From contig NZ_OU015584.1 in assembly GCF_907165195.1 (NCBI RefSeq), positions 2,046,001-2,110,000 on the forward strand: a stretch of 64,000 nt of DNA, in the 5' to 3' direction. The position numbers and the translations under genes are program-made. This stretch comes from Parvicella tangerina (GTDB taxonomy: Bacteria > Bacteroidota > Bacteroidia > Flavobacteriales_D > Parvicellaceae). Position 1 is the first letter of the stretch, and each line of letters opens with the position of its first letter. This document shows, in pieces, positions 23,590 through 45,205 of the stretch. The notes beneath the pieces are model-generated. The model ran no database searches. It saw nothing but the letters and a program-made list of their open reading frames with translations, and was not told where the DNA came from.

Positions 23590-23658
23590 ATTGAACTATT
23601 CCTTTTTACTTCTGTTTTACTTTAGAAAATCACTGTTAATAACTTTTGCGTGTACAAT

Positions 23659-23937: not shown

Positions 23938-23973
23938 CTTGTTTATTAATTCATTGTTCCCGATCTCATTGTA

Positions 23974-24180: not shown

Positions 24181-24192
24181 TTTACTAGGTTT

Positions 24193-26023: not shown

Positions 26024-26259
26024 GTCAGAGAATGACATATATAGCTTTATTTAAGTATGAGTACGCATAAAAATCAGGTATTTATACGTATTGACTGGTT
26101 TTATTTTTTAGGCTAATATTATGGCAGTTTTAAACATTGACAAAAACGAGATAAGAAATTTGATATTACACGTTAGTGGCATATCTTTACAGAAAATGTA
26201 ATTTATTAACTATTGAGGTAGACATTTAGTAAAATATTGACATAGCGTTACATAGTAAT

Positions 26260-26378
26260 TTTGTACGATAAAACCGCCAATTTTAAAAGACAACCAGAAT
26301 TATTAGAGGAACGCTCACCTGATGGGGTGGGCTTCTCTTATTTGGTTGTCGGGTGCTTGGCGGTACCTTTCGTACGAA
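26260..26378. ncRNA. 118-nt long imperfect hairpin, possible structured RNA or DNA fold
   Basis: Nested pairings run in perfect register: GTACG/CGTAC (outer), ACCGCCAA/TTGGCGGT, GACAACCA/TGGTTGTC, AGAGGA/TTCTCT, and GCTCACC/GGTGGGC around a 6-nt loop. They are separated by small internal loops. It lies 37 bp before the ATG at 26415, so it would form in that gene's 5' leader if transcribed from the left. It could be a cis-regulatory RNA, a small RNA or a single-strand origin. I could not match it to a known class. Confidence 0.6.
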
Positions 26379-26414
26379 TATGTAGAATGTCCGCCCCACC
26401 TATTTTTATAGCGA

Positions 26415-29205: not shown

Positions 29206-29207
29206 CG

Positions 29208-30236: not shown

Positions 30237-30237
30237 A

Positions 30238-30708
30238 ATGATGACTAAATTAGTTAAGTATATAATTACTGTCTTGGTTTTTCTAAATACCCAATCAGTA
30301 TCAGCTCAATTAAGATCAGTAAAGGAGACAGCTATCAATGAAGTAGAAATATGTCTAATCCCTTTTCAATTAAAGTTAAAGGTAGAACCTCTATTGGACA
30401 GTGTTATTCACAATTCTGAAAAATTTTGTGAAAGGAGTAATTACAAATTAATTTTTAATGAGTTTGATGATGATATAAAAACGAGAGAAGATTTTGTTTC
30501 ATACTTTACCGAAGCCTCTTTGCTAAAAAATCATGACAAATATTTAATTCGAGGAAGAGTGGTTATAAGTTACCTCGACACAGATGTTAATGATGTTTTA
30601 TTGTTAGATCAAAATGGGTATATATATTTTAGAGATAAATGGTATCAAAATGGTCAAATCTTAGATTTTTTACTTGGTAATTTTTCTAAAAAAGTAATTG
30701 AATATTAA
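30238..30708 (+). CDS. Secreted small protein, candidate immunity partner of the RHS protein
   Basis: The start is ATG 30238 (156 residues), one base after the RHS stop codon; the frame also extends upstream inside the RHS gene but that part is not coding. The N-terminus MTKLVKYIITVLVFLNTQSVSA is a signal peptide. The rest is an alpha/beta domain of about 130 residues without recognised motifs. Position directly behind a toxin-type RHS tip and periplasmic targeting suggest immunity. This is inferred from context only. Confidence 0.6.
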   Translation: MMTKLVKYIITVLVFLNTQSVSAQLRSVKETAINEVEICLIPFQLKLKVEPLLDSVIHNSEKFCERSNYKLIFNEFDDDIKTREDFVSYFTEASLLKNHDKYLIRGRVVISYLDTDVNDVLLLDQNGYIYFRDKWYQNGQILDFLLGNFSKKVIEY

Positions 30709-30773
30709 GTTTTACTCATTCTTTTTAGCAAACTGTAAAGAGAAATAATAATAATAAGTCATAACTCTAAAAA

Positions 30774-31067
30774 ATGAAAATAGACGAACTCTACCAAAAA
30801 GTGATAGAAGGATTACCAACTAAAGAACTTCATCCTTTACACAAAGCAATTATGGAAGAATGTTGTGAAAATGCACTAAACAATTCTCAAAAGATTTCTG
30901 ATCTTGACACCTTGGTTGATGTTGTACACCTAGCCTTTCTGACTTGTAACACAACTTTAAAAGGCACACTTTTAGGTTCTCTGGAAGCGGTAAATGCGGA
31001 TCAGGTTACACTTAACTATCGAGATCAAACCTTTATCATTTCCCGAAATTCTCCACTATTAGACTAA
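30774..31067 (+). CDS. Small hypothetical protein
   Basis: This 97-residue cytosolic protein is helical in the first 70 residues (MKIDELYQKVIEGLPTKELH, TLVDVVHLAFLTCNTTLKG) with a short beta end. No family recognised. It is followed after 5 bp by the next unknown gene, and the two look like a two-gene unit that could be an accessory defence or toxin-antitoxin pair. There is no direct evidence for that. Confidence 0.55.
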   Translation: MKIDELYQKVIEGLPTKELHPLHKAIMEECCENALNNSQKISDLDTLVDVVHLAFLTCNTTLKGTLLGSLEAVNADQVTLNYRDQTFIISRNSPLLD

Positions 31068-31072
31068 AAAAC

Positions 31073-31660
31073 ATGACTAACAATTTTATTTCTCCTTACA
31101 ACTTGCCGTTCTTCTCACAGTTAAAAACTCAAAGAGAAGCGATGATAAATTCTCTCGTCAATAATCTTAAAATTAACGATGTTAGAGATGATGAAAAGTT
31201 TGCCCAAACAACAACACGAATTAAGCATGCTGTTCTCATAAAAAAGGTCGTGTTCGGTGAACCAAAATGTATTGACCATGAATATGAAGAAAAACCACTT
31301 AACATACAACAACAATTAGTTGGCGGTTTTAGCAAAGATCATTACATACACCAAATTGAATTTCCATTTACTGGTGACACAGAGTTGTTTAATCATACCC
31401 CTGAAAAAGGGTTCTCATATTTAAGTTCTGATCGTGGGCTTATTCTACCTAATTATAATAAGTTAACTGTTTATGCAGACCTTCCTGAATTGAACCCCAC
31501 TAAAGCAATTGCAGAAGCACGAGGTTTTTTATCAATGACAACGCAGTTTGTAAATGCCAATAATGCTTCTATAGATAACTGGGAGGTTAGTGTAACTCAA
31601 AGGATTGACCGACAATTGCAACAAAAACGTGAAGAGTTAATTAAACTTTTTGGAGACTAA
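31073..31660 (+). CDS. Hypothetical protein
   Basis: This 195-residue cytosolic protein has no signal peptide or membrane segment. It is beta-rich in the middle (HYIHQIEFPFTGDTELF, NKLTVYADLPEL) with a C-terminal coiled helix (QRIDRQLQQKREELIKLFGD). Not recognised. It is tightly coupled to the 97-residue gene upstream. Confidence 0.55.
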   Translation: MTNNFISPYNLPFFSQLKTQREAMINSLVNNLKINDVRDDEKFAQTTTRIKHAVLIKKVVFGEPKCIDHEYEEKPLNIQQQLVGGFSKDHYIHQIEFPFTGDTELFNHTPEKGFSYLSSDRGLILPNYNKLTVYADLPELNPTKAIAEARGFLSMTTQFVNANNASIDNWEVSVTQRIDRQLQQKREELIKLFGD

Positions 31661-31801
31661 TATATCCTAAGTGAGTATTAAACAACGTTCATTTAATGGG
31701 ATAATTAGTTTTATATTTATAGAGCCCTTTTTTTACGCTAGGTGATTGTAAAATCATGCTCGTTTTCAAGAATAATTCCATAGTTTATCTGAATAATAAA
31801 A

Positions 31802-32548
31802 ATGATGACTAAAACTAATAATGCTATTGAAGCCATTAAGTTAAACGCTCATTCAATTTATACTATTGAGGATTGTTATCTTAATGCTATTATGAATTTG
31901 TTGTCTTTAGCTAAATACCAGTTTAATTCTGCATTTATTATTGAAAACATAAATTATCTTGAAGAGATTTGTTCTTTGCCTGAAGATGAAGCTAAAAAAG
32001 AAAAGCAAATCTTAAGACAACTGGCTGAAAACAGTACAATTGACGCTGTAAAAATCTCTTTATGCTTTGAGAATATTGGTAAAGCAATTTTGTTAGGATC
32101 AGGCTTTATAATACACAAAGTGGATAAAAATATTAATTCTGACCTTTTCAAAGAACAACAAAAAAGACCGATAGAAATTAGTGAGTTTGCTAACGATCAT
32201 TGGTTTGAAGATGATAAAGTTAACACAACAGATAATAATTTAAAAAAAAAAATAATGGGCGTAAGCCAAGTACACACTATCCATTATAGCACAATCATAG
32301 GTAAACCAAAATACTCAGGACTTTTAAATATTGATAATGATATGTTACAGTTCTTAAGAGAAATCAATGATCGTAGAAATCAGTTGCATTTCCTGAACAC
32401 TTTTGGAGTTACTTTAAAAAACTCTGACTATGATAGATATAAAAGTTTAAAAGAGCAGGTAGATAGTTACTATAACAAAGCCCTTTTAAAATACAAAGAT
32501 CGCACGGGAAAAACAATCAATGGATTAGATTTGATTATGAAAGAGTAG
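31802..32548 (+). CDS. Hypothetical helical protein with HEPN-like Rx4H motif
   Basis: This 248-residue protein is almost entirely helical. Near residue 195 it has LREINDRRNQLHFL, which fits the R-x4-6-H signature of HEPN ribonucleases (often with Asn after Arg). HEPN proteins are common in abortive-infection and toxin systems. Its place directly before the integrase, at the cargo end of the island, suits a defence gene. No partner nucleotidyltransferase is seen. Assignment is tentative. The genes are convergent, with 1 bp between the two stops. Confidence 0.55.
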   Translation: MMTKTNNAIEAIKLNAHSIYTIEDCYLNAIMNLLSLAKYQFNSAFIIENINYLEEICSLPEDEAKKEKQILRQLAENSTIDAVKISLCFENIGKAILLGSGFIIHKVDKNINSDLFKEQQKRPIEISEFANDHWFEDDKVNTTDNNLKKKIMGVSQVHTIHYSTIIGKPKYSGLLNIDNDMLQFLREINDRRNQLHFLNTFGVTLKNSDYDRYKSLKEQVDSYYNKALLKYKDRTGKTINGLDLIMKE

Positions 32549-32549
32549 T

Positions 32550-33839
32550 TTAATCAACTATTTGGTCATTTGCATCATCCAACACATCATCATCAAAAGA
32601 ATCTAAATAGATTTGGGTGGTTCTTAGATCAGAATGACCTAACCCCTCAGATATTACAGAAATTGGAAGCATTTTTCTTTTAGCAATCGTAGCCCATGAA
32701 TGACGAGCGTAATATGTTGTTATATCTTCATCCAGTCCAACCATTGCACCGATCTCCCGAATCCTTCGATTGATTCGCTTTCGTTTTTGCTTGTAAGTCC
32801 TGTAACCGATTTCCGTATCTGTATAACCAATAGGAAACACTTTATCGTTTTTGTCCTTCTCAAAAATATTGTAACTGTTCAGTATTGCTAAAGATTCGTC
32901 CGTTAGCTTTATCGAGAACTCTCCTTTGCTCTTACTCCGCTTATAATTCAATCGTCCCTGAACCAGTTTTCCATTTTCGTATTTCGCTCCCAAAATTTGC
33001 CATTTCTCTAACTTCGCAATATCAACGAAATTGATCCCCATATTATTAAACATGAATAGGAAGTAGTTTTTTGCATCCCATAAAGCGGAATGAGGTTTCA
33101 ATTCGAGTTTTCTAATATCCCGTATAACTTCAATTCGCAATGCTCTCTTTTTGGTCTTTTCTGCTTTGGGAATCTTATACCGTTCAAACGGGTTTAAATC
33201 ACTTGTTATAACTCCTTCCAAGATTGCTTCCTTATAAAGCGTTTGAATAGGTCGTAAATAAATGCTGATCGTACTATTTTTGTTGTTTCTGCTCTTGCAG
33301 TACGCTTCAAAGCCACGTAAGAAAGCTAAATCCACATCCGCAAATAGAATTTCATCTTTACCAAAATAACTTTGAAAGCGTTCTAAAGATGATCTAAAAA
33401 CAGCCGCATAACCGTTTCCTTTACTTTGGGTTAAGAGTTTGATTCTCTCGTTAGCGTATTTTGTCAGCGAACTGGAATTTAATTTCTTTGCTAAGATTCT
33501 GTTTTTTGTTCGTTGGGTGGTATTCTCAGATGAAAAAACAACAATTTCCAAATTGCTTTTAAGTTCCCCGATTTGCATTTCCTCTACTTCAAGAGTGTTA
33601 TTTAATACGTAAGTTTTCGCTTTTGAGAGTTGCAACTCAATCTTAGCATTTATCAAATTTGAATTGGGAACTGATTTACCGATAAAACTAACATCACTCC
33701 ATTTTTCTATTAAGCATGATTTTTTGAGATTGATAAAACGGGTTTGTCCTTTGTGGGAAATAGCGATAACTATCGGGTAAGTTCCATCCGATTTTTCCCG
33801 GTTCTTGCGAGTATCTAATTTTAGTTTAACTTTAGCCAT
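32550..33839 (-). CDS. Tyrosine recombinase/integrase of element 1 (IntDOT-like)
   Basis: This encodes 429 residues. An arm-binding beta domain lies at 1-90, a SAM-like core-binding domain at about 115-205 and the catalytic domain at 220-420. The box I position reads NNMGINFVDIAKL, with the usual Arg missing as in other Bacteroidota integrases related to IntDOT. Box II reads TYYARHSWAT (Arg present, His replaced). GLGHSDLRTTQIYL holds the His and the nucleophile Tyr. It reads away from attR, whose core begins 156 bp upstream. It should recombine the 46-bp core in tRNA-Pro. Confidence 0.92.
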   Translation of the reverse strand: MAKVKLKLDTRKNREKSDGTYPIVIAISHKGQTRFINLKKSCLIEKWSDVSFIGKSVPNSNLINAKIELQLSKAKTYVLNNTLEVEEMQIGELKSNLEIVVFSSENTTQRTKNRILAKKLNSSSLTKYANERIKLLTQSKGNGYAAVFRSSLERFQSYFGKDEILFADVDLAFLRGFEAYCKSRNNKNSTISIYLRPIQTLYKEAILEGVITSDLNPFERYKIPKAEKTKKRALRIEVIRDIRKLELKPHSALWDAKNYFLFMFNNMGINFVDIAKLEKWQILGAKYENGKLVQGRLNYKRSKSKGEFSIKLTDESLAILNSYNIFEKDKNDKVFPIGYTDTEIGYRTYKQKRKRINRRIREIGAMVGLDEDITTYYARHSWATIAKRKMLPISVISEGLGHSDLRTTQIYLDSFDDDVLDDANDQIVD

Positions 33840-33861
33840 TATGATCTGTTTTGGTTAAAAA

Positions 33862-33881
33862 TTGCACGTGTAATTGCACGT
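33862..33881. promoter_or_regulatory. Putative integrase arm-type sites, right end
   Basis: Two TTGCACGT copies start 12 bp apart, between the integrase start codon and attR. They mirror the pair at 23571. They may bind integrase during recombination and also repress its own promoter. Confidence 0.5.
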
Positions 33882-33973
33882 TTTCAATTCTAAAATAGAT
33901 CGAAATAGAATGAAATGAAATTACAATTATTAACAAACTCCTTTATTCATAACGGTTTTGAGGGTGTTATGTT

Positions 33974-35611
33974 TCATTTGAATATAGAAAGAATTTGCTT
34001 TGGGAGCAGGAGGTCGCAAGTTCGAATCTTGCCACCCCGACCTAACGGGATTAAGTTGGAGAAATCTAACTTAATCCCTTTTTTATTTTCTCCTAACTCG
34101 TTGATATTGTTAAGAATAAGATTGAATAGCACTCCTATTCTTTCGGTTCGAAATACTCCTTTTTCCTTGTTGTACTGTATTCCGTTCGGAAATAGTAGTT
34201 TTTGAAGGGTTAGTTTCCTGTTTAAACTTGCTAACCCCCACTCTTTACTGATGTTACGGGAAATTTCAACCGCTTTTTCAATCGCTTTTTGGAGGTTCGA
34301 ACTTTTTATTTCGGTCTGTTCCAATTGCTTTTCAATTTTTAGCTTTTCCGCTTGAATCTGTGTAATAAACTTTTCGTAAAGTGCATCATCTATTTTACCA
34401 AATGCGAAACGCTCTTGTAACGTTTCTATTTTCTTGTTGATCTCACTTAACTCTAATTTGATTGCGTGGTTTCCTTCTGCTTTATCCTGAATGTATTTAC
34501 TTATGGATGCGTTAAGCATTTCCTTTAAGGGTTCTTTATATTCTTCTTTGATCTCAAACCCCGTAAGAATTTCCTTATAAGCGGTATTTAGTTTTTTAGC
34601 GTTTATATTAACCTTACAACCGTTTGTTCTACACTTGTAATAATAAAGCCCTTTAGATTTAACTAAATAGCCCGTTAAGGGTGCTTTACAACAATCACAA
34701 ACAACAAAACGTTTTAATGGTAGTTCCTGCACCTCCGTGCTATGCTTCCCCTTTTCAAATTTCTCATTTAACACGTTGTTCACTTTCAGGAACAAGGATT
34801 TTGAGATTAACGGAGTATGTAAACCCTTATAGGATTTATTGGGGGTTAGCTTTGAAACGAGTACCCCACAATAAAACGGGTTTCTTAGAACCCTTGAAAA
34901 GGTTTTTTCATTGATCTTTAGCCCTCTCGCTTCCAAGCGTTCCAATATCGCTAAATTACTAATACGCTCGTTTGCTTTCCATTCAAACGCTTTTTTTAAC
35001 AATAACCCATCCTCATTGATAACCATTTCTTTTATTTTGCTCTTACTGTTATAGTTTTTGGAATATCCTAACGGGGGTTGAAAACACCAAATACCATCCT
35101 CTAACTTTTGAATCATCCCGTTAACGGATTTATCCCTGCGTAAATCGTTATCCATTTTGGAGAACAATAACAGTATGTTTTCTTGTAGTTCTCCTGATGG
35201 TGTGGAACTATCAATATTTTGTGAAACCGTAATAACAGAAACTCCGATTTTCTTTAACTGGTCTTTGATCTGCATACCACTGGAACCCGTTCGGGAAAAA
35301 CGATCTAACGAATACACAACAATATAGGATATATCTTTCTTACTCTTTACAAACTTCAACATTCGGTTAAACTCTTTTCTATCTGTATCGCTTTTTGCGG
35401 ATTCGTGCGTACCCCCGAAGTATTGCCGAATGTTCAACTTTGAGCGTTCCGCAAAAGCCAAACAATGCTTCATTTGGGTTTCCAAAGAAGCATTGTTTTC
35501 GGCTTGTTCTTTCGTTGATACACGGGTGTATATAACCGCATTATTTGTTCGTGTTCGTTTCTTCTTTTCGGGTTGCGGTGCGAACTGGTTGAATATTGAT
35601 AAATCGCTCAT
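33974..35611 (-). CDS. Large serine recombinase
   Basis: This encodes 545 residues. The resolvase domain has the nucleophile Ser in AVIYTRVSTKEQAE (about 26-39) and YSLDRFSRTGSSGMQIKDQL. The recombinase domain is at about 170-300 (PPLGYSKNYN, RVLRNPFYCGVLV), followed by a zinc ribbon (VVCDCCKAPL, YYKCRTNGCKV) and a coiled coil (LSEINKKIETLQERFAFGK). The last 22 residues include GGKIRTCDLLLPKQ, an antisense translation of the tRNA-Pro-derived repeat, so the gene runs through the attachment site of element 1. It should integrate and excise the second element. Confidence 0.92.
   Translation of the reverse strand: MSDLSIFNQFAPQPEKKKRTRTNNAVIYTRVSTKEQAENNASLETQMKHCLAFAERSKLNIRQYFGGTHESAKSDTDRKEFNRMLKFVKSKKDISYIVVYSLDRFSRTGSSGMQIKDQLKKIGVSVITVSQNIDSSTPSGELQENILLLFSKMDNDLRRDKSVNGMIQKLEDGIWCFQPPLGYSKNYNSKSKIKEMVINEDGLLLKKAFEWKANERISNLAILERLEARGLKINEKTFSRVLRNPFYCGVLVSKLTPNKSYKGLHTPLISKSLFLKVNNVLNEKFEKGKHSTEVQELPLKRFVVCDCCKAPLTGYLVKSKGLYYYKCRTNGCKVNINAKKLNTAYKEILTGFEIKEEYKEPLKEMLNASISKYIQDKAEGNHAIKLELSEINKKIETLQERFAFGKIDDALYEKFITQIQAEKLKIEKQLEQTEIKSSNLQKAIEKAVEISRNISKEWGLASLNRKLTLQKLLFPNGIQYNKEKGVFRTERIGVLFNLILNNINELGENKKGIKLDFSNLIPLGRGGKIRTCDLLLPKQILSIFK
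33996..34041 (+). repeat. Right attachment repeat (copy of tRNA-Pro 3' part)
   Basis: This is a perfect 46-bp copy of 23449-23494, lacking the 5' half of the tRNA, so it is not a functional tRNA. It is attR of element 1 and at the same time overlaps the 3' end of the serine recombinase gene on the other strand. Confidence 0.93.
34047..34078 (+). terminator. Terminator-like hairpin beyond attR
   Basis: An 11-bp stem (GGGATTAAGTT/AACTTAATCCC) is followed by six T residues. On the plus strand it would have ended tRNA-Pro transcripts before element 1 inserted. It lies inside the recombinase reading frame on the other strand. Confidence 0.7.
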
Positions 35612-36109: not shown

Positions 36110-36760
36110 TTATTTAATGTTGTTCTTGATGACCATGAAAACGGGCTTTTCCTGGGTAGTTACATAGCCGTTTGCATCCGTTGAAAACCTTGAATAACCT
36201 GTTGAATCCCCAACGTTTCCCCCTGCGGTTTTTAGATACCCTTTCCCTTCTTCAACAATCAGTTCCCCATGAGCTGCGAAATGACCATCTGTATCATACC
36301 CTTTGCCTGATTCTCTGGTAAAAACAATCAGATCTCCTTTTTTAGGGGCGTATTCGTTGATCCTGTAACCGATTAAGGGTGCATTGGGATTATTCCTGTT
36401 TCGTTTTGCCTCTTGGAAATAACCGCTATGAGCTGCACTATAAGGAAACTGGTTGTTTGCTCCTGCCGTCTGAAATAAGTACGATATAAATGCACTTGAC
36501 CAGGGATATGTAGCCTGTACTGAAGGGTCTTGCATTTCCGTTTTAGAGAATAGCTTTCCGACTGCCTTCCAGTAATCAATGAGCCAATCAGAAACAAATG
36601 GGGAAAGTTCTGTATAACCCTTCCATTTTTCTACTTCTTTTTTGGCTATGGTAACTAAGCGGTCTTTAAACCCTGTCTTGCTTTTATGAACAAAGTACCA
36701 TGTGACACTACCACATAGGAGCAACAGGCACATAATCAATATGTAATGCTTTGTTTTCAA
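36110..36760 (-). CDS. DUF2272-type membrane-anchored peptidoglycan hydrolase-like protein
   Basis: This encodes 216 residues from TTG 36760; an ATG at 36733 is the alternative, but the Lys residues before the membrane segment favour the TTG. One N-terminal membrane anchor (YILIMCLLLLCGSVTWYFV) is followed by a domain with YPWSSAFISYLFQTAG, FPYSAAHSGYF, KKGDLIVFTRE and HGELIVE, the pattern of DUF2272/NlpC-P60-like wall enzymes. It is the last structural-cassette gene before the recombinase end. Probable role: entry or exit lysin of a virus-like particle. Confidence 0.72.
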   Translation of the reverse strand: MKTKHYILIMCLLLLCGSVTWYFVHKSKTGFKDRLVTIAKKEVEKWKGYTELSPFVSDWLIDYWKAVGKLFSKTEMQDPSVQATYPWSSAFISYLFQTAGANNQFPYSAAHSGYFQEAKRNRNNPNAPLIGYRINEYAPKKGDLIVFTRESGKGYDTDGHFAAHGELIVEEGKGYLKTAGGNVGDSTGYSRFSTDANGYVTTQEKPVFMVIKNNIK

Positions 36761-36945
36761 GAATTTGTCTTAGATTTGAATGGGTAAGGTGGGCAGAGTG
36801 AATCAACTCATGTGCTTGTCATTTCTTGAGGCTGACCACTCTGTTTCCCCTTACTTGTTTTTGATGAACAAGTTTTCCCATTTTAATATTACACGATCTT
36901 TTCAGTTTCGTTTATGCCAATTATTAAACGCTTGTTTTGCGCTAT

Positions 36946-37245
36946 TTATTGGTTCTTCTCAATGAGGTAATCCAACTTCTTTTCGATGCTCTCCAACCTC
37001 TTTTCTATGTTGCCTAATTTCTCTTGTTGTACAAGTTGTCCTCCGGAGAGTTCATCTAAATCCTGTTCGTTGGATTCCACCCTTTTAGTTATGACCTCTA
37101 TCTTTTCATTGGTGTAGTTCATGGATGAAGTCGTATTGTAATAAAACGGGATCAACATAAAGGTTGCCGTTATTACCACCCAAATCAGGTTTTCTGTTAT
37201 CTTTTTCGCTATGTCTGTTTTAGCTTTCATGCTATGTTTAACCAT
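36946..37245 (-). CDS. Membrane coiled-coil protein
   Basis: This is 99 residues from ATG 37245, overlapping the upstream gene by 8 bp. One membrane segment (IWVVITATFMLIPFYY, about 23-38) is followed by a coiled coil to the C-terminus (EKLGNIEKRLESIEKKLDYLIEK). The layout resembles small holin-like or virion-membrane proteins. Not recognised. Confidence 0.6.
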   Translation of the reverse strand: MVKHSMKAKTDIAKKITENLIWVVITATFMLIPFYYNTTSSMNYTNEKIEVITKRVESNEQDLDELSGGQLVQQEKLGNIEKRLESIEKKLDYLIEKNQ

Positions 37246-37672
37246 TTTGAGCCTGTGCAAGAATGTCAGCCAGTAACTTACATTCTTTCATTTGTCCCTT
37301 TATATATAATGCTATAGCTGTAGATAGTTGCATTTCATCCTTTTCAGGCTTTAAGTGAATCAACAAGAACATTTGTGTTGTGGTGGCTAATTCATACTGC
37401 GTTACGCCATAATCAAAAATGCTTTTTACTATCTTACGAATACTCATGCTAATTAGTCCACTCATTGCACCTACTCCCGAAGCCTTTGCCATTTCTTTGA
37501 TGTAAATTCTTCTTAGGAATTTTGCCTTATCAAATACCGATAATACGGGTTTTGCTTTTTGACTTTCCAAGTCTATTCTAATACCAACGTTCTGTGTTGG
37601 TACATTCTCCTGCTCTGCTATGCCTTGCATTAGGTCAGAACACGTTTCTACTATCATTTTTCCTGCGTCCAT
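37238..37672 (-). CDS. Hypothetical cassette protein (paralogue B)
   Basis: This 144-residue soluble alpha/beta protein matches the gene at 37908 in several blocks: QNVGIRIDL against KNVCIRVRF at the start of the fold, and IKGQMKECKLLADILA against IDGKLKQCMYVSDLLA at its end. The two are likely tandem-duplicated and diverged. No family recognised; they could be paired structural or chaperone subunits. Confidence 0.6.
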   Translation of the reverse strand: MDAGKMIVETCSDLMQGIAEQENVPTQNVGIRIDLESQKAKPVLSVFDKAKFLRRIYIKEMAKASGVGAMSGLISMSIRKIVKSIFDYGVTQYELATTTQMFLLIHLKPEKDEMQLSTAIALYIKGQMKECKLLADILAQAQNG

Positions 37673-37677
37673 GTCTT

Positions 37678-37908
37678 TTAAATTTTAGTTGTCCAATTAA
37701 ACCGGTTCTTTAACTTGCTCAGGTAACTGAAGAAATACCGACCAAGCGAACCGTTTGCCTTGGTGGGCTTTCTATATCCGACCTTCTTTGCCAATTCTGA
37801 CAACTCATTGCCATACGATTGGGCGTGAAAATCATTTTTAAAATCAACCCCTAATTCTAATGCCCTGATATAAGCCTGATAAATCGTTATTTCACGCTGC
37901 TCATCCAT
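37678..37908 (-). CDS. Small basic hypothetical protein
   Basis: This 76-residue helical protein (ITIYQAYIRALELGVDFKNDF, ELSELAKKVGYRKPTKANGS) ends in a basic tail (YFFSYLSKLKNRFNWTTKI). It overlaps the upstream gene by 1 bp and lies 5 bp before paralogue B. It is possibly DNA binding. Not recognised. Confidence 0.55.
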   Translation of the reverse strand: MDEQREITIYQAYIRALELGVDFKNDFHAQSYGNELSELAKKVGYRKPTKANGSLGRYFFSYLSKLKNRFNWTTKI

Positions 37909-38348
37909 CAGTTCAACAATTCATCACCTGTCCCCAGTATCGCCAAAAGGTCAGACACATACATACATTGCTTTAACTTTCCATCTATTGCGCTTACTAC
38001 AACAGGTCGATTTGTCTTAGGAGATTCATAAAGCAATACGGCTATATCTTTTTGTGCCGCCACCTTAAACCGCTTTTTGGTCATTTGATAAAATGCCTGT
38101 ATGCAACAGTAAAAATCCTCTACTCCAAACCGCAGGGCGATCAACTTCGGACTGGATAGCTCCAGATAGTGCAACCGAACAATTGACTTTAGTGTAAAAA
38201 GTCCCAATTCCATTGCCTTTTTCTCCCCAATGAATCTAACCCGGATACATACATTCTTTTTAGTCTTCCCTTTTCTTATCCCGATCAGTTCCAGAACTTC
38301 CGAAAATGCTGCATCCACTTTATTCGTTATGTCTTTTGGCTCTTTCAT
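37908..38348 (-). CDS. Hypothetical cassette protein (paralogue A)
   Basis: This 146-residue soluble protein is similar in outline to the gene at 37238 (see that entry). It has a central hydrophobic stretch, VEDFYCCIQAFYQM, and a strand-rich end, RPVVVSAIDGKLKQC. It lies 6 bp after the WHy-domain gene. Function unknown. Confidence 0.6.
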   Translation of the reverse strand: MKEPKDITNKVDAAFSEVLELIGIRKGKTKKNVCIRVRFIGEKKAMELGLFTLKSIVRLHYLELSSPKLIALRFGVEDFYCCIQAFYQMTKKRFKVAAQKDIAVLLYESPKTNRPVVVSAIDGKLKQCMYVSDLLAILGTGDELLN

Positions 38349-38354
38349 TTTTCT

Positions 38355-38831
38355 TTACAATAGATCTCCAACAGTGAAATAGGATCGAATGGGAATCGGG
38401 AAAACGGGTAACATCCCGATCTTTGCCGACAACTTCCCTGATACTGTTACCTGCAAATCATTTAACATCATTATATCAACCCCACTAAAGGCAGGTATCT
38501 TTTCTTTTATGTCGTCAAATTTGATTTGTAAGTCAACCAGTAAAGTAGATGTTCCCTTTTTCATCACCCGAAAGGTCTTTTCGGCACTTGCATTTGAAAT
38601 AAGATGCCCTGCAATGAAAATTTCATAATACTGCTTACTGACTTTCAAATTAAACTGGGTCGGGTTCTCCACCGAAAACACCACTTTAAAATTGATCGCT
38701 TCCGCACTTATGGTATAGACCTGTATCGAAATGGGTTGATAGTCGATTTGATTGGATAACCACAAACCAAATAACCCCACGCTAAAGCCTGTTCCTGCCA
38801 CTGCTGTTCCTATTTTTGCAACTGTTTTCAT
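38355..38831 (-). CDS. LEA14/WHy-like membrane-anchored protein
   Basis: This 158-residue protein has an N-terminal membrane anchor (IGTAVAGTGFSVGLFGLWL) and a beta-sandwich with FKVVFSVENPTQFNLKVSKQYYEIFIAG. The VxNPT motif followed by a strand is typical of LEA2/WHy domains, which occur in desiccation proteins and in phage or secretion contexts. Its start overlaps the muramidase stop by 4 bp. Probable membrane-linked structural protein. Confidence 0.65.
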   Translation of the reverse strand: MKTVAKIGTAVAGTGFSVGLFGLWLSNQIDYQPISIQVYTISAEAINFKVVFSVENPTQFNLKVSKQYYEIFIAGHLISNASAEKTFRVMKKGTSTLLVDLQIKFDDIKEKIPAFSGVDIMMLNDLQVTVSGKLSAKIGMLPVFPIPIRSYFTVGDLL

Positions 38832-39460
38832 GCTGTCTTTCTTTTTAGTTTATTCAGCTCTACCAGTACATTTACTGGAATCCTGTTTTGTATCGTTAAT
38901 TCCGGGCTTCTTCTTTCGCCTTTTCTTACCGTCTTCCTGTTCAACTGGATTTCTCCTAAAAGCCTTAGAAAGTTCTTGCGTTTGTTCTTGTTGCCTATGT
39001 GCGTATAACACCACTTCATTCTGGCTCTTAGCACCTTAAAAAGTGCTACATGATCCAAGCTATTTAAAAGGTCTATTCCTTTGGGTGTAAATACTTCATA
39101 GTGATTGATGTGGTGTTTTAATTTATCCGCCACACGTTCGAGGTTTAAACGCATTGCCGTTGTTCCGATACTGGTCAGCCCCAAGTAAATAAGTGCGGCA
39201 ACGTCTTTATGGTCGAGGTTGATTAATCCCATACCTAACCATAAGCGTTGATACAATAAGTTGAAGGCTTCGTTTTGGGTTAATTCCTTCATATCGTCAG
39301 CCTTTGGAGTTCGCCCCAAATACTCGGCTAACATAGGTGCGGTAATGCCCCATTTTGTACCGACAAACTGACCTCCTGTAAATGATCTTTCATTGGTTAA
39401 ACTAAGGGTGTATTTCCCTGTTAATCCTATCTTTTTCGCTATTTGCTTAAACCTTTTCAT
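38828..39460 (-). CDS. GH108-like muramidase with PG-binding-3-type domain
   Basis: This 210-residue protein has an N-terminal half showing NERSFTGG and TKWGITAPMLAEYLGRTP, then ELTQNEAFNLLYQRLWL. This is the pattern of GH108 endolysins, in which the Glu of the E-G-G motif is catalytic. The second half (VAALIYLGLTSIGTTAMRLN to FLRLLGEIQLN) fits the PG_binding_3 helical domain. It has no signal peptide. It should cut the glycan strand of peptidoglycan for release or entry of a particle. Confidence 0.75.
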   Translation of the reverse strand: MKRFKQIAKKIGLTGKYTLSLTNERSFTGGQFVGTKWGITAPMLAEYLGRTPKADDMKELTQNEAFNLLYQRLWLGMGLINLDHKDVAALIYLGLTSIGTTAMRLNLERVADKLKHHINHYEVFTPKGIDLLNSLDHVALFKVLRARMKWCYTHIGNKNKRKNFLRLLGEIQLNRKTVRKGERRSPELTIQNRIPVNVLVELNKLKRKTA

Positions 39461-39477
39461 ACGCTTTACTTTTTTAG

Positions 39478-39999
39478 TTAATAATCCTTGAAAATCACCG
39501 CATCAGAACGCACCCAACCGTAGGTGTCGCTTACGCCTAAACCGTTGTCAATTTTCACTTTGAACCATGTATAGGCGTAACCGCTTTCATCCCCTTTTTT
39601 GTAGTCCACTACTTTCCCAATCTTCTTTCCGGAGGCTGCTTTGGTAATCTTGTTACTCCAAAAATCCCAACCGCCATTATCTACCAAAGCGGAAGACCTT
39701 ACCCATGCGTACCCTAATCCTCCTAAAGAAGTTGGTTTGGGGTACATCATTTTGCCTATCAGTTCCATCGAAGGATAATCCAGTTCTCCTTCCACGTTGA
39801 ACCTATAACCTCCGTTTTCGGGGTTGCCTTCTTCGGTATCTGCATAAACTCTCTGTGCCTCTAACCGTTTTTTTCGTTCTTCTTCTTCCTTCTCTTTTTG
39901 GTTCGGTACATACACCAATTGATAGAGCAAGTATGCCGTAAGTCCAAGCCCTACGAAAATGCCCCCTCCTATGATGATATGTTTTGTTGTCTTATTCAT
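39478..39999 (-). CDS. Membrane-anchored SH3-like domain protein
   Basis: This 173-residue protein has an N-terminal membrane segment (IIIGGGIFVGLGLTAYLLYQLVYV), a Lys/Glu helix, and then a beta-rich domain with GYAWVRSSALVDNG and TYGWVRSDAVIFKD, the repeated W-V-R-S end of bacterial SH3 domains. These often bind cell wall. It lies between the muramidase and other membrane proteins in the cassette. Confidence 0.65.
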   Translation of the reverse strand: MNKTTKHIIIGGGIFVGLGLTAYLLYQLVYVPNQKEKEEEERKKRLEAQRVYADTEEGNPENGGYRFNVEGELDYPSMELIGKMMYPKPTSLGGLGYAWVRSSALVDNGGWDFWSNKITKAASGKKIGKVVDYKKGDESGYAYTWFKVKIDNGLGVSDTYGWVRSDAVIFKDY

Positions 40000-40010
40000 T
40001 TCCTTTGGTG

Positions 40011-40496
40011 TTATGATCTGGGAAGACTGTTGATTTTTCCCATGAGTAATTGTGTTTGTACCTTGTCGCCTTCAAGTGCATCCTGTAAGACCGTATATAG
40101 ATCTGTGCTATATTCCTGCTCGAAGTAGTAAGCGATCTTTGATAAATCGTCATAGTGTCCCAGACCATCAAAGGCGTTAACTATGGCAGCTTCATTGTCG
40201 GATGAATACCAGCTACCGTAATTGTCCCAAACTTTTTTAGCCCTGTCAATAGCGGTCAATCGGGATATGGTCGCCTTACCTGATGACAGGTGTCTGTTAG
40301 GGTCAAAAGCTGAACTTGCCTGTAAACTTTCTATCCCTCCGACTGCTCCCGAATTATAAGGATCGCCATACGCATCGTCTAACCGTCCACGAATTTTGTT
40401 CTTCTTAACGCCTGGCACGATCAAAGCGGCACTTAGCCCCAAGATCGCTACGGAACTAAAACCTATCACTAAATGTATTTTTGCTTCTTGTGTCAT
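40011..40496 (-). CDS. Small membrane protein with soluble helical domain
   Basis: I start at ATG 40496 (161 residues), which overlaps the upstream stop as ATGA; the frame continues upstream only in the shadow of the neighbouring gene. One membrane segment (HLVIGFSSVAILGLSAALIVPG) is followed by a Gly/Ser linker and a helical domain (AAIVNAFDGLGHYDDLSKIAYYFEQEYSTD). Not recognised; a probable virion-membrane protein by context. Confidence 0.62.
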   Translation of the reverse strand: MTQEAKIHLVIGFSSVAILGLSAALIVPGVKKNKIRGRLDDAYGDPYNSGAVGGIESLQASSAFDPNRHLSSGKATISRLTAIDRAKKVWDNYGSWYSSDNEAAIVNAFDGLGHYDDLSKIAYYFEQEYSTDLYTVLQDALEGDKVQTQLLMGKINSLPRS

Positions 40497-40948
40497 TGTC
40501 CTAATAGTTTTGGGGACGGTGTTCCACCAATCATTCCGCCCGTTCTTACCTTCATGGCTAACTCTGCGGCATCGTTTAAGGTTTTTCCTTTTTTGATCTG
40601 TGCGATCAGGTAGTAAGAGGCAATACCTATTACGATAATTGTTGTGCCGATTATTATGGCTCTTGTCCACTCCAAACCCGAAACAAACCAATCTGTTACA
40701 TCGTGGGTAACGTCTGACAGTTCCCCCGTCCAGTCCGTTGTTAGTTCCACTCCCTGCGAACTCATGTACTCCCTTAGTGAATGGGTGTCCGCCTGTGTTC
40801 CTGCTCCGGCTCGTTGGTTCCAGAACTTCACAAAATAGGCGTTGGCTTCGGTCTTGCTAAACCACTTTTTCAATTGTTTGTGCCATGAAATCCATTCTTC
40901 CGCACTACTGGTGGAATTGGGTATATATTTACTTGGATCGCTTTTCAT
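40493..40948 (-). CDS. Small membrane protein
   Basis: This 151-residue protein has a soluble N-terminus rich in Trp (SAEEWISWHKQLKKWFSKTE) and one membrane segment near residue 100 (IIIGTTIIVIGIASYYLIA). The tail is short and ends in GGTPSPKLLGQ. It is coupled by an ATGA overlap to the next gene. Not recognised. Confidence 0.6.
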   Translation of the reverse strand: MKSDPSKYIPNSTSSAEEWISWHKQLKKWFSKTEANAYFVKFWNQRAGAGTQADTHSLREYMSSQGVELTTDWTGELSDVTHDVTDWFVSGLEWTRAIIIGTTIIVIGIASYYLIAQIKKGKTLNDAAELAMKVRTGGMIGGTPSPKLLGQ

Positions 40949-40960
40949 TGTCTTATCTTT

Positions 40961-41740
40961 TTAAATGCTGCAACGCTTGTTTTCTGCCGCCTTAAATCGC
41001 TTCACAAATTCCTGAATGGCTGCCCATCTTCTTTTATTCAGTTTCGATTTTTTTCCTCCAAATACTGCTTTGAAACATCGCAGCACTTCCACCGCATCAA
41101 AACCTAAATTCAGGGCAATATTGAGCGCAATCAGATCTGCGCTCAATTCATTGTTTGCCTGTCTGCCGTATTCTGCGTTTTTATATCGGTGGGCGTATTC
41201 ATGTAAGAGCAATACAATAAGCATGGGAACAGAGTACCCGATTAGCTTTGTTTTGGAAACCTGAATAACTCCTGTTTTTTTGCCTACTCTCGCAGGGGTG
41301 GAAACTTCTTCGCCCTCCTCTTCAATTTTATCCTGTAACAAGATGGTAAATTCATCACTCTGGTAGATGACACCTTTACCCTCTACGTGTTGTTCTTTCA
41401 GGTTCAAAGCGAACCACTTGGCAAACTTTATAAACCGTTTGTCTCTTTCGGTAAGTTCAACAGGACATTTGGTATCTCTTTTAATCTCAATTCGTTCAAT
41501 CACATAATGAGCATCCCCCAGAGGCAAATCCTTACACTCAATTTCTACCCGTAGCCTATCGGAGACAATCGGAAGTTTAAAAAGCAAGCGGTTTAATCCC
41601 ATTAAGGATACTTTGCGGTAAATGAACTGTGCGCCACTTATCGGGTTGAATATGGAGATAATCAACTTTACTGGCCGCAGTGCCTTAATAGTCAGCACCA
41701 GATTAAAGGGCTTTTGATATGGCAGCAAATCAAACCGCAT
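40961..41740 (-). CDS. HExxH zinc metallopeptidase-like protein
   Basis: This encodes 259 residues. A beta-rich N-terminal half of about 90 residues (FNLVLTIKALRPVKLIISIFN) resembles a structural domain. The C-terminal half carries LIVLLLHEYAHRYKN (HExxH) and NNELSADLIALNIAL, with a Glu/Asp pair as likely third ligand. It has no signal peptide. It may process capsid proteins, or act on the host wall or an inhibitor. The peptidase call is from the motif; the substrate is unknown. Confidence 0.7.
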   Translation of the reverse strand: MRFDLLPYQKPFNLVLTIKALRPVKLIISIFNPISGAQFIYRKVSLMGLNRLLFKLPIVSDRLRVEIECKDLPLGDAHYVIERIEIKRDTKCPVELTERDKRFIKFAKWFALNLKEQHVEGKGVIYQSDEFTILLQDKIEEEGEEVSTPARVGKKTGVIQVSKTKLIGYSVPMLIVLLLHEYAHRYKNAEYGRQANNELSADLIALNIALNLGFDAVEVLRCFKAVFGGKKSKLNKRRWAAIQEFVKRFKAAENKRCSI

Positions 41741-42180
41741 TAGCTGGTCACTTTTTTAGTTACTCTACCAATGAAAAAGCACCCGATTCCAAGACCTACC
41801 AGTATTGCGGTAAGCAGTAACCAATTTTGCTTAAAGGCTTCTACAAACCCAACTTCGCAAACGTGAGGCTCTTCTACCTTATCTTCTTTACTTGCCACTA
41901 CTTCAAATTCATCCAAAAACCCCTGATCGTAGGTTTTATCTTCTTCGCCTTCTTTAGTTTTAACAGTCGTCTGCTCTTGTGAAACTTCCTTTGTTTGAAC
42001 TGGTGCAATCGTTTCAGGTTCTTTACCTGATTCGGTTTTCGATATTTCCGATTGTTCAGGTAGAATTACCTTAATTTCAGGGGAATCAATACGCGGATCA
42101 TTAACCAATTGGTCTGATACTTTCGCCTGCTGTTTTTCCCCTGATTTAAAAAGGGTCGTTAATTTATTTTCTGTTTTCAT
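41740..42180 (-). CDS. C-tail-anchored acidic protein
   Basis: This 146-residue protein is polar and rich in Glu, Lys and Thr up to residue 115, then has one membrane segment near the C-terminus (WLLLTAILVGLGIGCFFIG). This tail-anchored layout recurs in three other cassette genes. It overlaps both neighbours by a few bases. Not recognised. Confidence 0.58.
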   Translation of the reverse strand: MKTENKLTTLFKSGEKQQAKVSDQLVNDPRIDSPEIKVILPEQSEISKTESGKEPETIAPVQTKEVSQEQTTVKTKEGEEDKTYDQGFLDEFEVVASKEDKVEEPHVCEVGFVEAFKQNWLLLTAILVGLGIGCFFIGRVTKKVTS

Positions 42181-42373
42181 ACTTTCTCTTTTTTAGTTGA
42201 TAACCGATTGCCCCGAACAAACTGGCAAAGACCAGTGTAACCGATACACCTTTAAAGCCGAAAACAATGGTTACAGTTGTTCCCACCAATGAGCCAAACC
42301 CGAACCATTTGGCGTAAGCCTTTGCACAGTTTTGATATTGCTCTTTTTCCGATATGTCTTTACCTTTCTTCAT
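42164..42373 (-). CDS. Two-pass mini membrane protein
   Basis: This 69-residue protein has two hydrophobic segments (GFGSLVGTTVTIVFGF and VSVTLVFASLFGAIGYQL) and a basic tail. Short two-pass proteins in such cassettes may be holins or virion-membrane proteins. It overlaps the next gene by 17 bp. Confidence 0.58.
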   Translation of the reverse strand: MKKGKDISEKEQYQNCAKAYAKWFGFGSLVGTTVTIVFGFKGVSVTLVFASLFGAIGYQLKKRKYENRK

Positions 42374-42375
42374 GG

Positions 42376-42966
42376 TTAACCGTTTAAGGCACTTACAGAA
42401 GCTGAACCGGCTGCGGCTGCTGCTTCCAATTGATTTTTCTTACTGGCGTGAATAATTGCAATCACAATTCCCAAGATCACAAGTACACCCACCGTAATAC
42501 CAATCGCTAAATTGGTTTTGCGTTTGCGCTCTTCTTCTTCCTCTTGTCTTTTTCTTTCTGCTTCTAATTCTTTTCTTTTGGCTTCATCCATAGTTGTTGC
42601 CGAAGTAGCTGTCATTGTCTGATTCCTTCCAATGCCTGTTAGGATTCCTCCCAATGCTTGCATGGCTGCTCCTGCAATGGTCATTCCCTGACCGTTGGCG
42701 TTTAGATACTCGCTGGTTTCTTCCATAAGCATACCCGTAACGGCTGCCCGTAATTCTGAATTTAGGGCAAGGTGCTTAACCAACGTAGAATACAATACCG
42801 CTTTGGGGGCTACTATACTGGCTTTGATCTTTAGAGCCGTCAGCAAGTCCACTAACTCCTGTGAACGGTTCTTAACCAATTCCCTTAGTTTTGCCTTTAC
42901 AATCAGATGGTTGGTTTTTACCTTACCTTCTTTTTCGTTTTTTATAATGACTTCTGATAGTTTCAT
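42376..42966 (-). CDS. C-tail-anchored helical protein
   Basis: This 196-residue protein has a helical N-terminal region of about 110 residues (IKASIVAPKAVLYSTLVKHLAL), a Gly/Ala-rich stretch (GMTIAGAAMQALGGILTGIG), a charged Glu/Arg/Lys helix and a membrane segment (LAIGITVGVLVILGIVIAIIHA) near the end. Not recognised. It is coupled to the upstream gene by a 4-bp overlap. Confidence 0.6.
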   Translation of the reverse strand: MKLSEVIIKNEKEGKVKTNHLIVKAKLRELVKNRSQELVDLLTALKIKASIVAPKAVLYSTLVKHLALNSELRAAVTGMLMEETSEYLNANGQGMTIAGAAMQALGGILTGIGRNQTMTATSATTMDEAKRKELEAERKRQEEEEERKRKTNLAIGITVGVLVILGIVIAIIHASKKNQLEAAAAAGSASVSALNG

Positions 42967-43643
42967 GTCGCTACGGTTTTGAGCTTGTTAGCTTTGAATT
43001 TCTTAATGGCAACCACAATCCCGATAATCACTAAAAGGCTTACTCCTGCAATGATAACCCATTGCATTTGTGAGGATTTCTTGTCTTCTTCTTCCTTTTG
43101 TTGTTGCTGTTCCGCTTGCTTTTGTTGCGCCTGTTGCATCTGCTTTTGATACTCTAATTCCTGCTGCTGCTTGGCTACTTCAATTTCTCCGAGTTGTTTA
43201 GCGGAATCGGGATCTATTCCCTTTTCTATTCCCTTGCTTTCGGCTTCAACTAATGCCTGAATTTGTTTTTTCAGGTCGCTGATCCTTCCCGGTAATCTTT
43301 TTTGTTCGGCTTTGGCGGATTCTATCTTACCTTCATAAACATCTATGTCTTTTTCCAGTTGGTAAACGACTTCATCTGCGTTTTTGCCTCCGTTGTCTTT
43401 TTCCCACTTCTTCTTTTTTCGGTTGCTCAATCCTTTTAAATAACCTATATCGGCTTGCTTTCTGGAAATGATGTCCTGGTAGTTCTTAATTACCGAAGGC
43501 AATTCAACCAACCTCTTTTCCAGTTTGTCCAAACTGCTTCTAAGATCGGTCAGGGTACTTGCTCCATCCGCAGCGTAATACACTTCGGGTTGAGCGATTG
43601 ACTGACCAAAATTCCATCCTGATATTTTCGTGTCTATTTTCAT
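42963..43643 (-). CDS. C-tail-anchored coiled-coil protein
   Basis: This 226-residue protein has coiled coils at about 30-60 and 85-130, a Gln-rich low-complexity helix at about 150-190 (QQQELEYQKQMQQAQQKQAE) and one C-terminal membrane segment (WVIIAGVSLLVIIGIVVAI). It is the first gene after the hairpin at 43736. It could be a scaffolding or membrane-spanning assembly protein. Confidence 0.62.
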   Translation of the reverse strand: MKIDTKISGWNFGQSIAQPEVYYAADGASTLTDLRSSLDKLEKRLVELPSVIKNYQDIISRKQADIGYLKGLSNRKKKKWEKDNGGKNADEVVYQLEKDIDVYEGKIESAKAEQKRLPGRISDLKKQIQALVEAESKGIEKGIDPDSAKQLGEIEVAKQQQELEYQKQMQQAQQKQAEQQQQKEEEDKKSSQMQWVIIAGVSLLVIIGIVVAIKKFKANKLKTVAT

Positions 43644-43735
43644 TTTTCTTCTATTACTCCTAAAGTTCAGGTTGTTCGATCCCTGTTGTCCTTACCGGAC
43701 AATTTTAATTTCTTTAGGATGTAAGGTTTAATGAA

Positions 43736-43754
43736 AGCCCCCTTATCGGGGGCT
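43736..43754 (-). terminator. Hairpin between capsid candidate and downstream cassette
   Basis: A 7-bp stem (AGCCCCC/GGGGGCT) with a 5-nt loop lies in the 135-bp gap after the 236-aa gene. There is no long T tract, so it is more likely an attenuator or RNA-stabilising hairpin that sets a higher level for the two genes before it. Confidence 0.5.
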
Positions 43755-43778
43755 GTTCTTTGTTTGAAAACTCAGCTA

Positions 43779-44489
43779 TTACCCTGAGATTTTTTTAGGG
43801 CGAATGCTAATCGCTCCTGTGTTTACTTTCGCATTGGCAAACGCCTTGATTGGGTCTTTCCCTCTCAACGTATCTGCCGTATCCACTTCATAATACGGGA
43901 AGATCGAATAGAAAATCCTCGTTTTAGGTTCAATTTCTACCTCAAGATAGGTACTACCATCCACATCAATTTTATCCCTGTCAATATCTATGATGTTTTT
44001 ATCGGTTTGGTACGCTGAACGGTAAATTTGCATATTGATTAACCATTGTTCCCAACGACCTCGACCATTTTTCCAGTTTACAACCATTGGTTTAGACAAC
44101 TGCAAAGTGTTATCTGATTCTACCCTGATGTGTTGAATCTTAAATGGTAGTCTGGCTGATCTTTGCAACAACTCAACGTATTCTACGCCTGTTTGTCCTG
44201 TAGTGATCTCAATTCCACTATCCGATCCGAAGTTATTTTTTAACAGGAATTTATCATGTCCGTAAATTACTGCTTTTAACGCCTTATCGGTTGGGTTGTT
44301 CACAACGATCTGGTAAGGATCAGCTTTGTAAAGCCTTTTTTGTGGTTGAGGTTGGCTCATCCCTGCATTGTCTTCATACTCCTCATAAACCTCATAATCT
44401 TCCCCATCCATGTGGTGAAATTGTTCCCTGCCTTCAATCTCGTCAAGGATTCTTTCAAATTCCGATTTGTTTCTTTTAACCTTTTTCAT
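43779..44489 (-). CDS. Candidate jelly-roll capsid-like protein
   Basis: This 236-residue protein has an acidic N-terminal 50 residues and then is almost entirely predicted beta: YQIVVNNPTDKALKAVIYG, HIRVESDNTLQLSKPMVVNW, STYLEVEIEPKTRIFYSIF. It has no signal, membrane segment or enzymatic motif. The run of short strands and its place as the second gene of a membrane-protein cassette resemble small major capsid or coat proteins of tailless viruses. This is a reading of pattern, not a database match. A different beta-rich structural role (penton, spike base) is possible. Confidence 0.45.
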   Translation of the reverse strand: MKKVKRNKSEFERILDEIEGREQFHHMDGEDYEVYEEYEDNAGMSQPQPQKRLYKADPYQIVVNNPTDKALKAVIYGHDKFLLKNNFGSDSGIEITTGQTGVEYVELLQRSARLPFKIQHIRVESDNTLQLSKPMVVNWKNGRGRWEQWLINMQIYRSAYQTDKNIIDIDRDKIDVDGSTYLEVEIEPKTRIFYSIFPYYEVDTADTLRGKDPIKAFANAKVNTGAISIRPKKISG

Positions 44490-44490
44490 G

Positions 44491-44712
44491 TTACTGAACT
44501 GTTTGAGTTACTTCCTGTGCATTCTCTGTGGCAACGGTTGTAGCTGTCGCAGGAGCTGGAAGTTTTTCTTTTTCTTTCGGCTTGGTTGTATCAGTGCTTG
44601 TCGTGTTTCTGGATTCCCAAAACTTAATAGCTCCATAAGCTAATAGGCTTGCGAGAAACGTAACGATCAAGTTCGATACTGCCGGATGCTTTAGAATTTC
44701 TCCAATTTTCAT
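44491..44712 (-). CDS. Small membrane protein, first gene of cassette
   Basis: This 73-residue protein has an N-terminal membrane segment (AVSNLIVTFLASLLAYGAIKFW) and a Thr/Glu/Pro-rich tail. It lies 1 bp before the capsid candidate and is the first gene transcribed leftward from the 494-bp intergenic region. Confidence 0.58.
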   Translation of the reverse strand: MKIGEILKHPAVSNLIVTFLASLLAYGAIKFWESRNTTSTDTTKPKEKEKLPAPATATTVATENAQEVTQTVQ

Positions 44713-45205
44713 TTTACTAATTGTTTTGTTTTAAAAACGCGCTTTAGTAAAATCAACGGAGCTTTCCAAATTGGGTTTTGGGTTTAAATGAGCATAGAAA
44801 ATGAGGCTTTCCGACAACACTAACAAGATCAAAGGGTTACAATGCTCGTTTAGACGCTCGGAATGCTCAGATAAAGTCTAAGATGTAGAAAAACAGATAC
44901 AAATTGAGTATAAACTCATTGTTTTGTTCTTTTTTTCACAAGAAAACAAGATGAAATTCTATTTTTTAGCACGTATTTACACGTGTTTTTTACAAGTATA
45001 AATACCTGTATTTATCACTAACCACAAAATAACTAATTGAATTTCAGTGAATAAAAAAAACAAAATGATGTTTGATGGTATAGATAGTTTTAATAGTTTT
45101 TTTTAAACAAGTTTAACAATTATCCAATTTTTTAGCATAAATTAGCCAAGAAAACTAAAAAAGTTTGATTCTCAATTGATTAAACAATAACTAAATCTCT
45201 TAATT
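44713..45205. other. Divergent regulatory region
   Basis: No gene is seen in these 493 bp. They separate the leftward cassette from rightward surface-protein genes and must hold both promoters. They contain an operator-like perfect palindrome at 44998-45015, a CACGT/ACGTG pair at 44970-44985 and A+T-rich tracts. No exact TAnnTTTG box stands out. Confidence 0.5.
44998..45015. promoter_or_regulatory. 18-bp palindrome, candidate operator
   Basis: ATAAATAC-CT-GTATTTAT is a perfect 8-bp inverted repeat with a 2-bp centre, the size expected for a dimeric HTH repressor site. It lies 286 bp before the cassette's first start codon and 190 bp before the gene at 45206. No cognate repressor is evident nearby. 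Confidence 0.4.

Follow-up and report, generated by a model that had tools for sequence, protein, structure and literature searches.

Which kind of element is formed by the block of small, tightly packed genes that adjoins a serine recombinase in the genome of Parvicella tangerina? The window, i.e. the whole stretch of 64,000 nucleotides analysed here (contig NZ_OU015584.1, positions 2,046,001 to 2,110,000), belongs to a Flavobacteriales-type genome that consists of a single contig of 3.98 Mb and has same-order relatives in our genome set, including Crocinitomix and Fluviicola. At 36110-44712 of the window, 17 densely packed open reading frames (ORFs), numbered c1 to c17 from right to left (44712 to 36110), share one strand, and neighbouring frames overlap by a few nucleotides. 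A sequence-only reading had described this cassette as sixteen tightly packed genes of a virus-like element; apart from the count, the gene set it described is real. We consider it probable that the cassette is a virion module, serving morphogenesis and lysis, from a lineage of temperate double-stranded DNA (dsDNA) phages of Bacteroidota that have no tail and probably contain a membrane; the window would hold a reduced copy, and we infer capsid, membrane, packaging and helper roles for the proteins and elements concerned.

The predicted abundance of small membrane proteins held up: Kyte-Doolittle analysis predicted one transmembrane (TM) helix in at least 10 of the 17 products, compared with 7 of 18 nearby chromosomal genes, most of which are much longer than the cassette genes. 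Pfam matched DUF2272 (E 3e-23), GH108 (3e-5) and LEA_2/WHy (6.5e-6), confirming the three identities assigned before, and the HExxH motif is conserved. The protein previously called SH3-like, c10, is present and N-anchored but has no Pfam SH3 match. Hidden Markov models of c3, c4, c10 and the peptidoglycan-binding family drift over coiled-coil and TM sequence, and their counts were not relied on. The ORFs and profile matches of the window element included no gene for a terminase, a portal, a tail protein, an ATPase or replication, and the genes for a DnaA-C-like protein and for p360 are absent from it, unlike in most relatives. PADLOC gave weak matches only, confined to the cargo, while Rfam detected two transfer RNAs (tRNAs) over the region and nothing else.

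The same genome harbours a second copy of the cassette. It lies in a 33.2-kb element (G000:C1:3630838-3664107; L003, L070, L071) inserted in tRNA-Met, with 48-bp attachment (att) repeats that correspond to the 3' end of this tRNA gene. In addition to the cassette and cargo, the element encodes a PIN protein, an integrase of the tyrosine type where the window element has the serine type, DUF6908, a DnaA-C-like protein, p360, the only ATPase of its family in this genome and a patatin. Sixteen of the 17 window genes recur there in the same order, with 75-81% DNA identity over 36112-44875. Between the copies, nonsynonymous divergence (dN) is 0.12 and synonymous divergence (dS) about 2, i.e. near saturation, giving an overall dN/dS of about 0.06, and every frame is open. 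The cassette is therefore not a product of chance. In the ORF lists of the 33.2-kb element, no terminase, portal, HK97 capsid or tail genes were seen.

Gene order is conserved beyond this genome. A survey of Flavobacteriales, as the sequence-only reading had proposed, recovered the order c17-c1 in at least five further elements (L015, L016, L017, L018, L019), in four of which the serine recombinase abuts a gene for tRNA-Phe or tRNA-Arg. A rightward block of DUF6908, DnaA-C-like protein (Pfam 1.4e-8), p360 and ATPase accompanies the cassette in the second copy, L015, L016, L017/L025 and L019/L026, and is lacking in the window copy and L018. The reported absence of packaging and replication genes thus holds for the window copy, but relatives do carry an ATPase and a DnaA-C-like protein. 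In the genome of L018 (G048, another family), which is 93% complete, the ATPase was not found. A decaying copy in Crocinitomix algicola (L014/L023) has an interrupted c2, and only c2-c4 remain. Among 395 sampled Bacteroidia genomes, 9 hold the ATPase; c2 stands beside it in two of the five loci read, and some of the other three are truncated by contig ends or by the limits of the sequence that was read.

We then turned to c2 as the candidate for a capsid protein. AlphaFold, supplied with an alignment of 33 sequences, predicted a core at about residues 57-204 with nine strands and a predicted local distance difference test (pLDDT) score of about 92, while both ends are disordered. The best structural rows were jelly rolls, among them cowpea mosaic virus (Z 6.8), PRD1 P3 (6.3) and the capsids of satellite tobacco mosaic virus (STMV) and bromovirus, interspersed with cellular ones, and a single jelly roll, not a double one, is the simplest reading of the modelled fold. 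The sequence-only reading had named the lack of any jelly roll beforehand as evidence against itself; instead, its 236-amino-acid protein has a confidently predicted single jelly-roll core, delimited in this case as residues 55-201.

Scans of IMG/VR with c2 alone gave no match, and it was the alignment of the c7 family that retrieved the viral set of 39 contigs, mostly of 45-100 kb. After removal of duplicates, c2 and c7 were present in 36 of 36 contigs (c7 by selection), and all 30 contigs holding ATPase, c2 and c7 (30 of 36 overall) have them in this order on one strand. Models of Terminase_6N and the HK97 capsid did not match in 20 such contigs, whereas controls were positive. The family ATPase shows a weak likeness to HerA (DUF87, 1e-5) or Zot (3e-4). 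One viral contig of 56 kb encodes VRR-NUC-like, RecT and DarB-like giant proteins, an exonuclease, endolysins and fibre-like proteins; a PHROG scan of 47 of its proteins revealed no terminase or tail among the matches listed (25 of 32 families). Besides c2, several viral contigs encode a longer protein that resembles it; the window copy has no such second protein. Fold, synteny with the ATPase and viral context in combination point to a capsid function of c2, for which the fold by itself would be insufficient.

In the proposed explanation, c2 would build a shell from a single jelly roll, and c1, c3-c6, c8-c10, c12 and c16 would be viral membrane or vertex proteins; it is the TM miniproteins that suggest an internal lipid membrane in the virion. 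The annexin-like repeat of c9, whose family profile matched ANXA6 with an E of 1e-41, perhaps binds lipids. The cell wall would be opened by c11 and c17, and c7 may act as a virion or maturation peptidase. In c7, H180, E181 and H184 are invariant and the AlphaFold model reached a pLDDT of 92.7, while Foldseek returned only partial matches resembling carbohydrate-binding modules for the beta part. In complete relatives, filling the shell with DNA would fall to the HerA/Zot-type ATPase. Integrase and virion module are present in the window copy; since it has no ATPase, DnaA-C-like or p360 genes, it could move only with help, and the 33.2-kb element, which has the leader motif in common with it, would be the obvious candidate helper.

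Two sequence features deserve mention beside these proteins. A single annexin-type repeat is combined with an N-terminal TM helix in phage-like elements (window 40011-40496; L027:14507-16306), and one viral contig has several copies of this arrangement. Several putative virion proteins (c2, c3 and many L020/L027 proteins) have, within their N-terminal 50 residues, recurrent short acidic motifs that end in DG or FxG; possibly they are a cleavage or assembly tag, with c7 as the candidate peptidase.

Several points weigh against a viral origin or limit its support. The group is known here from genes alone, and the IMG/VR contigs are predictions, many of which may be fragments. The negative result for tailed-phage genes in the contigs covers two models, Terminase_6N and HK97 capsid, other terminase and portal families being outside the test. 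For c2, capsids share the best ranks with jelly rolls of cellular proteins (AlgX, nucleoplasmin, PHM), its jelly-roll Z scores of at most 6.8 lie in a range where unrelated matches occur, and Foldseek alone found no match in PDB at E<=1e-3. The purifying selection spans the whole branch between the copies and may predate the gene loss, and the window element has a provisional right end. These genes could form a mobile apparatus of the cell envelope or of secretion, or else a domesticated particle, with lysins, membrane and jelly-roll proteins at the cell surface, and jelly rolls, annexin-like repeats, WHy, DUF2272 and patatin do occur in cells, too. We nevertheless regard a non-viral machine as unlikely, given that the same block stands in contigs classed as viral by IMG/VR together with RecT, DarB-like, VRR-NUC, endolysin and fibre-like proteins, and that integration is targeted to tRNA genes with att repeats.

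If the cassette is a virion module, as we prefer, the history of the window copy can be told in two ways. It may be a partly deleted provirus that recently lost its replication and packaging arm and is decaying with no helper, which we hold to be a quite real possibility: the window copy has lost everything beyond the conserved leader on its right, and the Crocinitomix algicola copy demonstrates clear decay. But all 16 shared frames are intact and conserved, as is the integrase, and the same layout without an ATPase occurs once more, in a different family (L018/G048). Alternatively, the window element might be a satellite that carries shell genes of its own and owes its mobilisation to the 33.2-kb element. 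Its own integrase, the intact virion module without replication and packaging genes and the occurrence of two ATPase-less elements in different families would fit. The leader motif ACGAGCATTGTAAC is confined to the two elements, with exactly two occurrences in the genome, each upstream of c1, and is the one positive sign for such a mobilisation. Known phage satellites, however, usually borrow the capsid while retaining genes for replication and regulation, which is the reverse arrangement; in addition, no regulator was identified in the window element, whose right end is provisional. We rate the satellite as possible, and deletion without use of a helper and mobilisation by the 33-kb relative as about as likely. 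Both are alternatives inside the preferred explanation, and their probabilities are not to be added to that of the virion module itself.

How does the group relate to described phages? No sequence match to the cassette was found among them except via lysins, and our literature search, which largely left out subscription papers and bioRxiv, returned no description of the group. In anatomy, the nearest described virus is SSIP-1, not FLiP. SSIP-1 is tailless, has an internal membrane, a 43.8-kb dsDNA genome and a Bacteroidota host, is possibly of the single jelly-roll type by listing and is said to encode two types of major capsid protein (MCP) (PMC6260650, PMC6356626). In its record, the ATPase (gp40) is followed by a giant gene with a methyltransferase and a series of small proteins, several with a C-terminal hydrophobic stretch. 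Features of this anatomy (ATPase, giant methyltransferase protein, small proteins with C-terminal TM, 40-kb class, Bacteroidota host) also turned up in one viral contig of the group; the window element itself does not show it. We compared SSIP-1 by sequence and profile, the capsid folds being outside the comparison. Among the cassette and core models, the GH108 lysin model of c11 was the only one with a clear match (gp31, 4.5e-7). Two models of coiled-coil/TM proteins matched weakly, which we did not trust, and hhalign of the c2, c7, c9, c12 and ATPase profiles yielded at most a P-loop-sized match at 11%. Since the lysin alone matches clearly and the profile comparison of five families failed, the group is not filed with SSIP-1.

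Finnlakeviridae carry lysins and small membrane proteins, like the cassette, and with the similar host phylum this would speak for the FLiP- or PM2-type single-stranded DNA (ssDNA) or small dsDNA phage that had been suggested from the sequence. Their members FLiP and PhiCjT23 infect flavobacterial hosts and have an internal membrane (PMC7654751, PMC9719478). But Finnlakeviridae have ssDNA genomes of about 9 kb or less and a double jelly-roll MCP, whereas c2 has one jelly roll. Furthermore, neither c2 nor c7 matched FLiP-like or any other proteins by tblastn in the phage collection, and the relatives are sizeable and dsDNA-like (33 kb integrated, 45-100 kb as contigs) with HerA/Zot-type ATPase, VRR-NUC, RecT and DnaA-C-like proteins. 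We thus see no support for a kinship with FLiP or other ssDNA phages and consider a phage of this type very improbable; what stands of the earlier proposal is a virus-like structural cassette with lysins, membrane miniproteins and a jelly-roll capsid candidate in an integrated element, possibly a satellite. Tectiviridae and Corticoviridae (PRD1, PM2) have double jelly rolls and genomes of 10-15 kb (PMC6260650). They are tailless with a membrane and PRD1 P3 is among the best structural rows of c2, but again c2 has one jelly roll. Sphaerolipoviridae and Matsushitaviridae have a packaging ATPase. They differ in their two MCP types, where the window copy has one c2, and in their archaeal or Thermus hosts, and their records were not among the tblastn matches. 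Members of these families (HHIV-2, SH1, P23-77) have single jelly-roll shells, an internal membrane and genomes of the 30-kb class (PMC6260650, PMC6356626). A Caudoviricetes prophage is not supported either: terminase, portal, HK97 capsid and tail genes are lacking in the window element, none were seen in the 33.2-kb relative, and the two hallmark models are absent from 20 contigs.

Table 1. Features of the window element, from c1 leftwards, followed by leader, integrase and repeat
Feature	Position	Strand	Description (basis)
c1	44491..44712	-	miniprotein with N-terminal TM (TM prediction)
c2	43779..44489	-	236 aa; predicted single jelly roll, capsid candidate; acidic disordered N-terminal tail (AlphaFold, structure comparison)
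c3	42963..43643	-	C-anchored TM and coiled coil
c4	42376..42966	-	TM protein, C-anchored
c5	42164..42373	-	hydrophobic miniprotein
c6	41740..42180	-	TM protein, C-anchored
c7	40961..41740	-	zincin-type HExxH metallopeptidase; beta sandwich at N-terminus
c8	40493..40948	-	one TM
c9	40011..40496	-	N-terminal TM and one annexin-like repeat; start is an internal ATG, as in relatives
c10	39478..39999	-	N-anchored (TM prediction); SH3-like in the sequence-only reading
c11	38828..39460	-	GH108-like muramidase (Pfam 3.2e-5)
c12	38355..38831	-	WHy/LEA_2-like (Pfam 6.5e-6); conserved in viral contigs
c13	37908..38348	-	paralogue of c15
c14	37678..37908	-	76 aa; sole cassette gene absent from second copy, found only in window copy
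c15	37238..37672	-	soluble; paralogue of c13; conservation reaches viral contigs
c16	36946..37260	-	coiled coil and N-terminal TM; in all intact Flavobacteriales elements
c17	36110..36760	-	DUF2272 wall enzyme, N-anchored (Pfam 3.3e-23; TM prediction)
Leader upstream of c1	44713..44875	-	conserved, GAGCAT half-sites, common to second element (alignment)
Large serine recombinase (integrase)	33974..35611	-	Pfam Resolvase 1e-27, Recombinase 6e-10; PHROG integrase 9e-72
att-type repeat, 46 bp	33996..34041	+	perfect copy of tRNA-Pro 3' end (23449-23494)

The serine recombinase previously noticed next to the cassette was identified as such by Pfam and PHROG models. Its 3' end runs antisense over a 3' fragment of tRNA-Pro, and the recombinases of relatives overlap tRNA genes likewise. 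Long att repeats were sought for the serine-recombinase elements and none were found; they are not expected for this enzyme class. Comparison with same-genus genomes for an empty site showed that synteny is broken there. The 46-bp repeat separates the window element from a neighbouring 10.5-kb element (23449-34041), which extends from tRNA-Pro to this copy of its 3' end. The neighbour has a tyrosine integrase (32550-33839) and, at 25628-26070, tandem repeats with a period of 46 bp; its DUF6908-like protein (24378-25322) is a relative of the one in the full phage elements.

In most relatives (L015-L019, L070), but not in the window, a patatin-like phospholipase adjoins the integrase or the ATPase; roles in lysis, membrane remodelling or defence are possible. 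Upstream of c1, L015, L016, L017 and L019 each have their own spaced direct and inverted repeat, e.g. AACTGCCCAC / GTGGGCAGTT, in the place of the GAGCAT half-sites of the window, and both kinds of sites probably serve a regulator or as an origin, with specificities that differ between elements. The contig that carries the large G098 element encodes a second member of the ATPase family, which is divergent (L082:4889-5572; G098:C1:4958-5530). CP034120.1 (L026), titled Glaciecola amylolytica, is apparently the same genome as G134, which our genome set assigns to the genus of Fluviicola chungangensis, so that its label may be wrong.

Taken further, the elements and contigs could represent a virus lineage, at least of family rank, that is spread across Bacteroidota and combines a single jelly-roll shell, a membrane with annexin-repeat proteins, a HerA/Zot-type packaging ATPase and tailless genomes of unusual size (33 to about 100 kb), and that spawns ATPase-less, shell-carrying elements that live off a full relative; we judge this broader proposal to be nearly, but not quite, an even chance. 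To our knowledge, few tailless membrane phages are known, and SSIP-1 stands nearly alone among the dsDNA ones of Bacteroidota. The lineage is represented by dozens of metagenomic contigs and has integrated into hosts that are named and in culture (Fluviicola, Crocinitomix), which makes it testable by induction. If the proposal is true, the known range of bacterial viruses would widen to large tailless genomes, a shell of single jelly rolls and a protein of the annexin type, and possibly to a satellite that has shell genes but no packaging motor.

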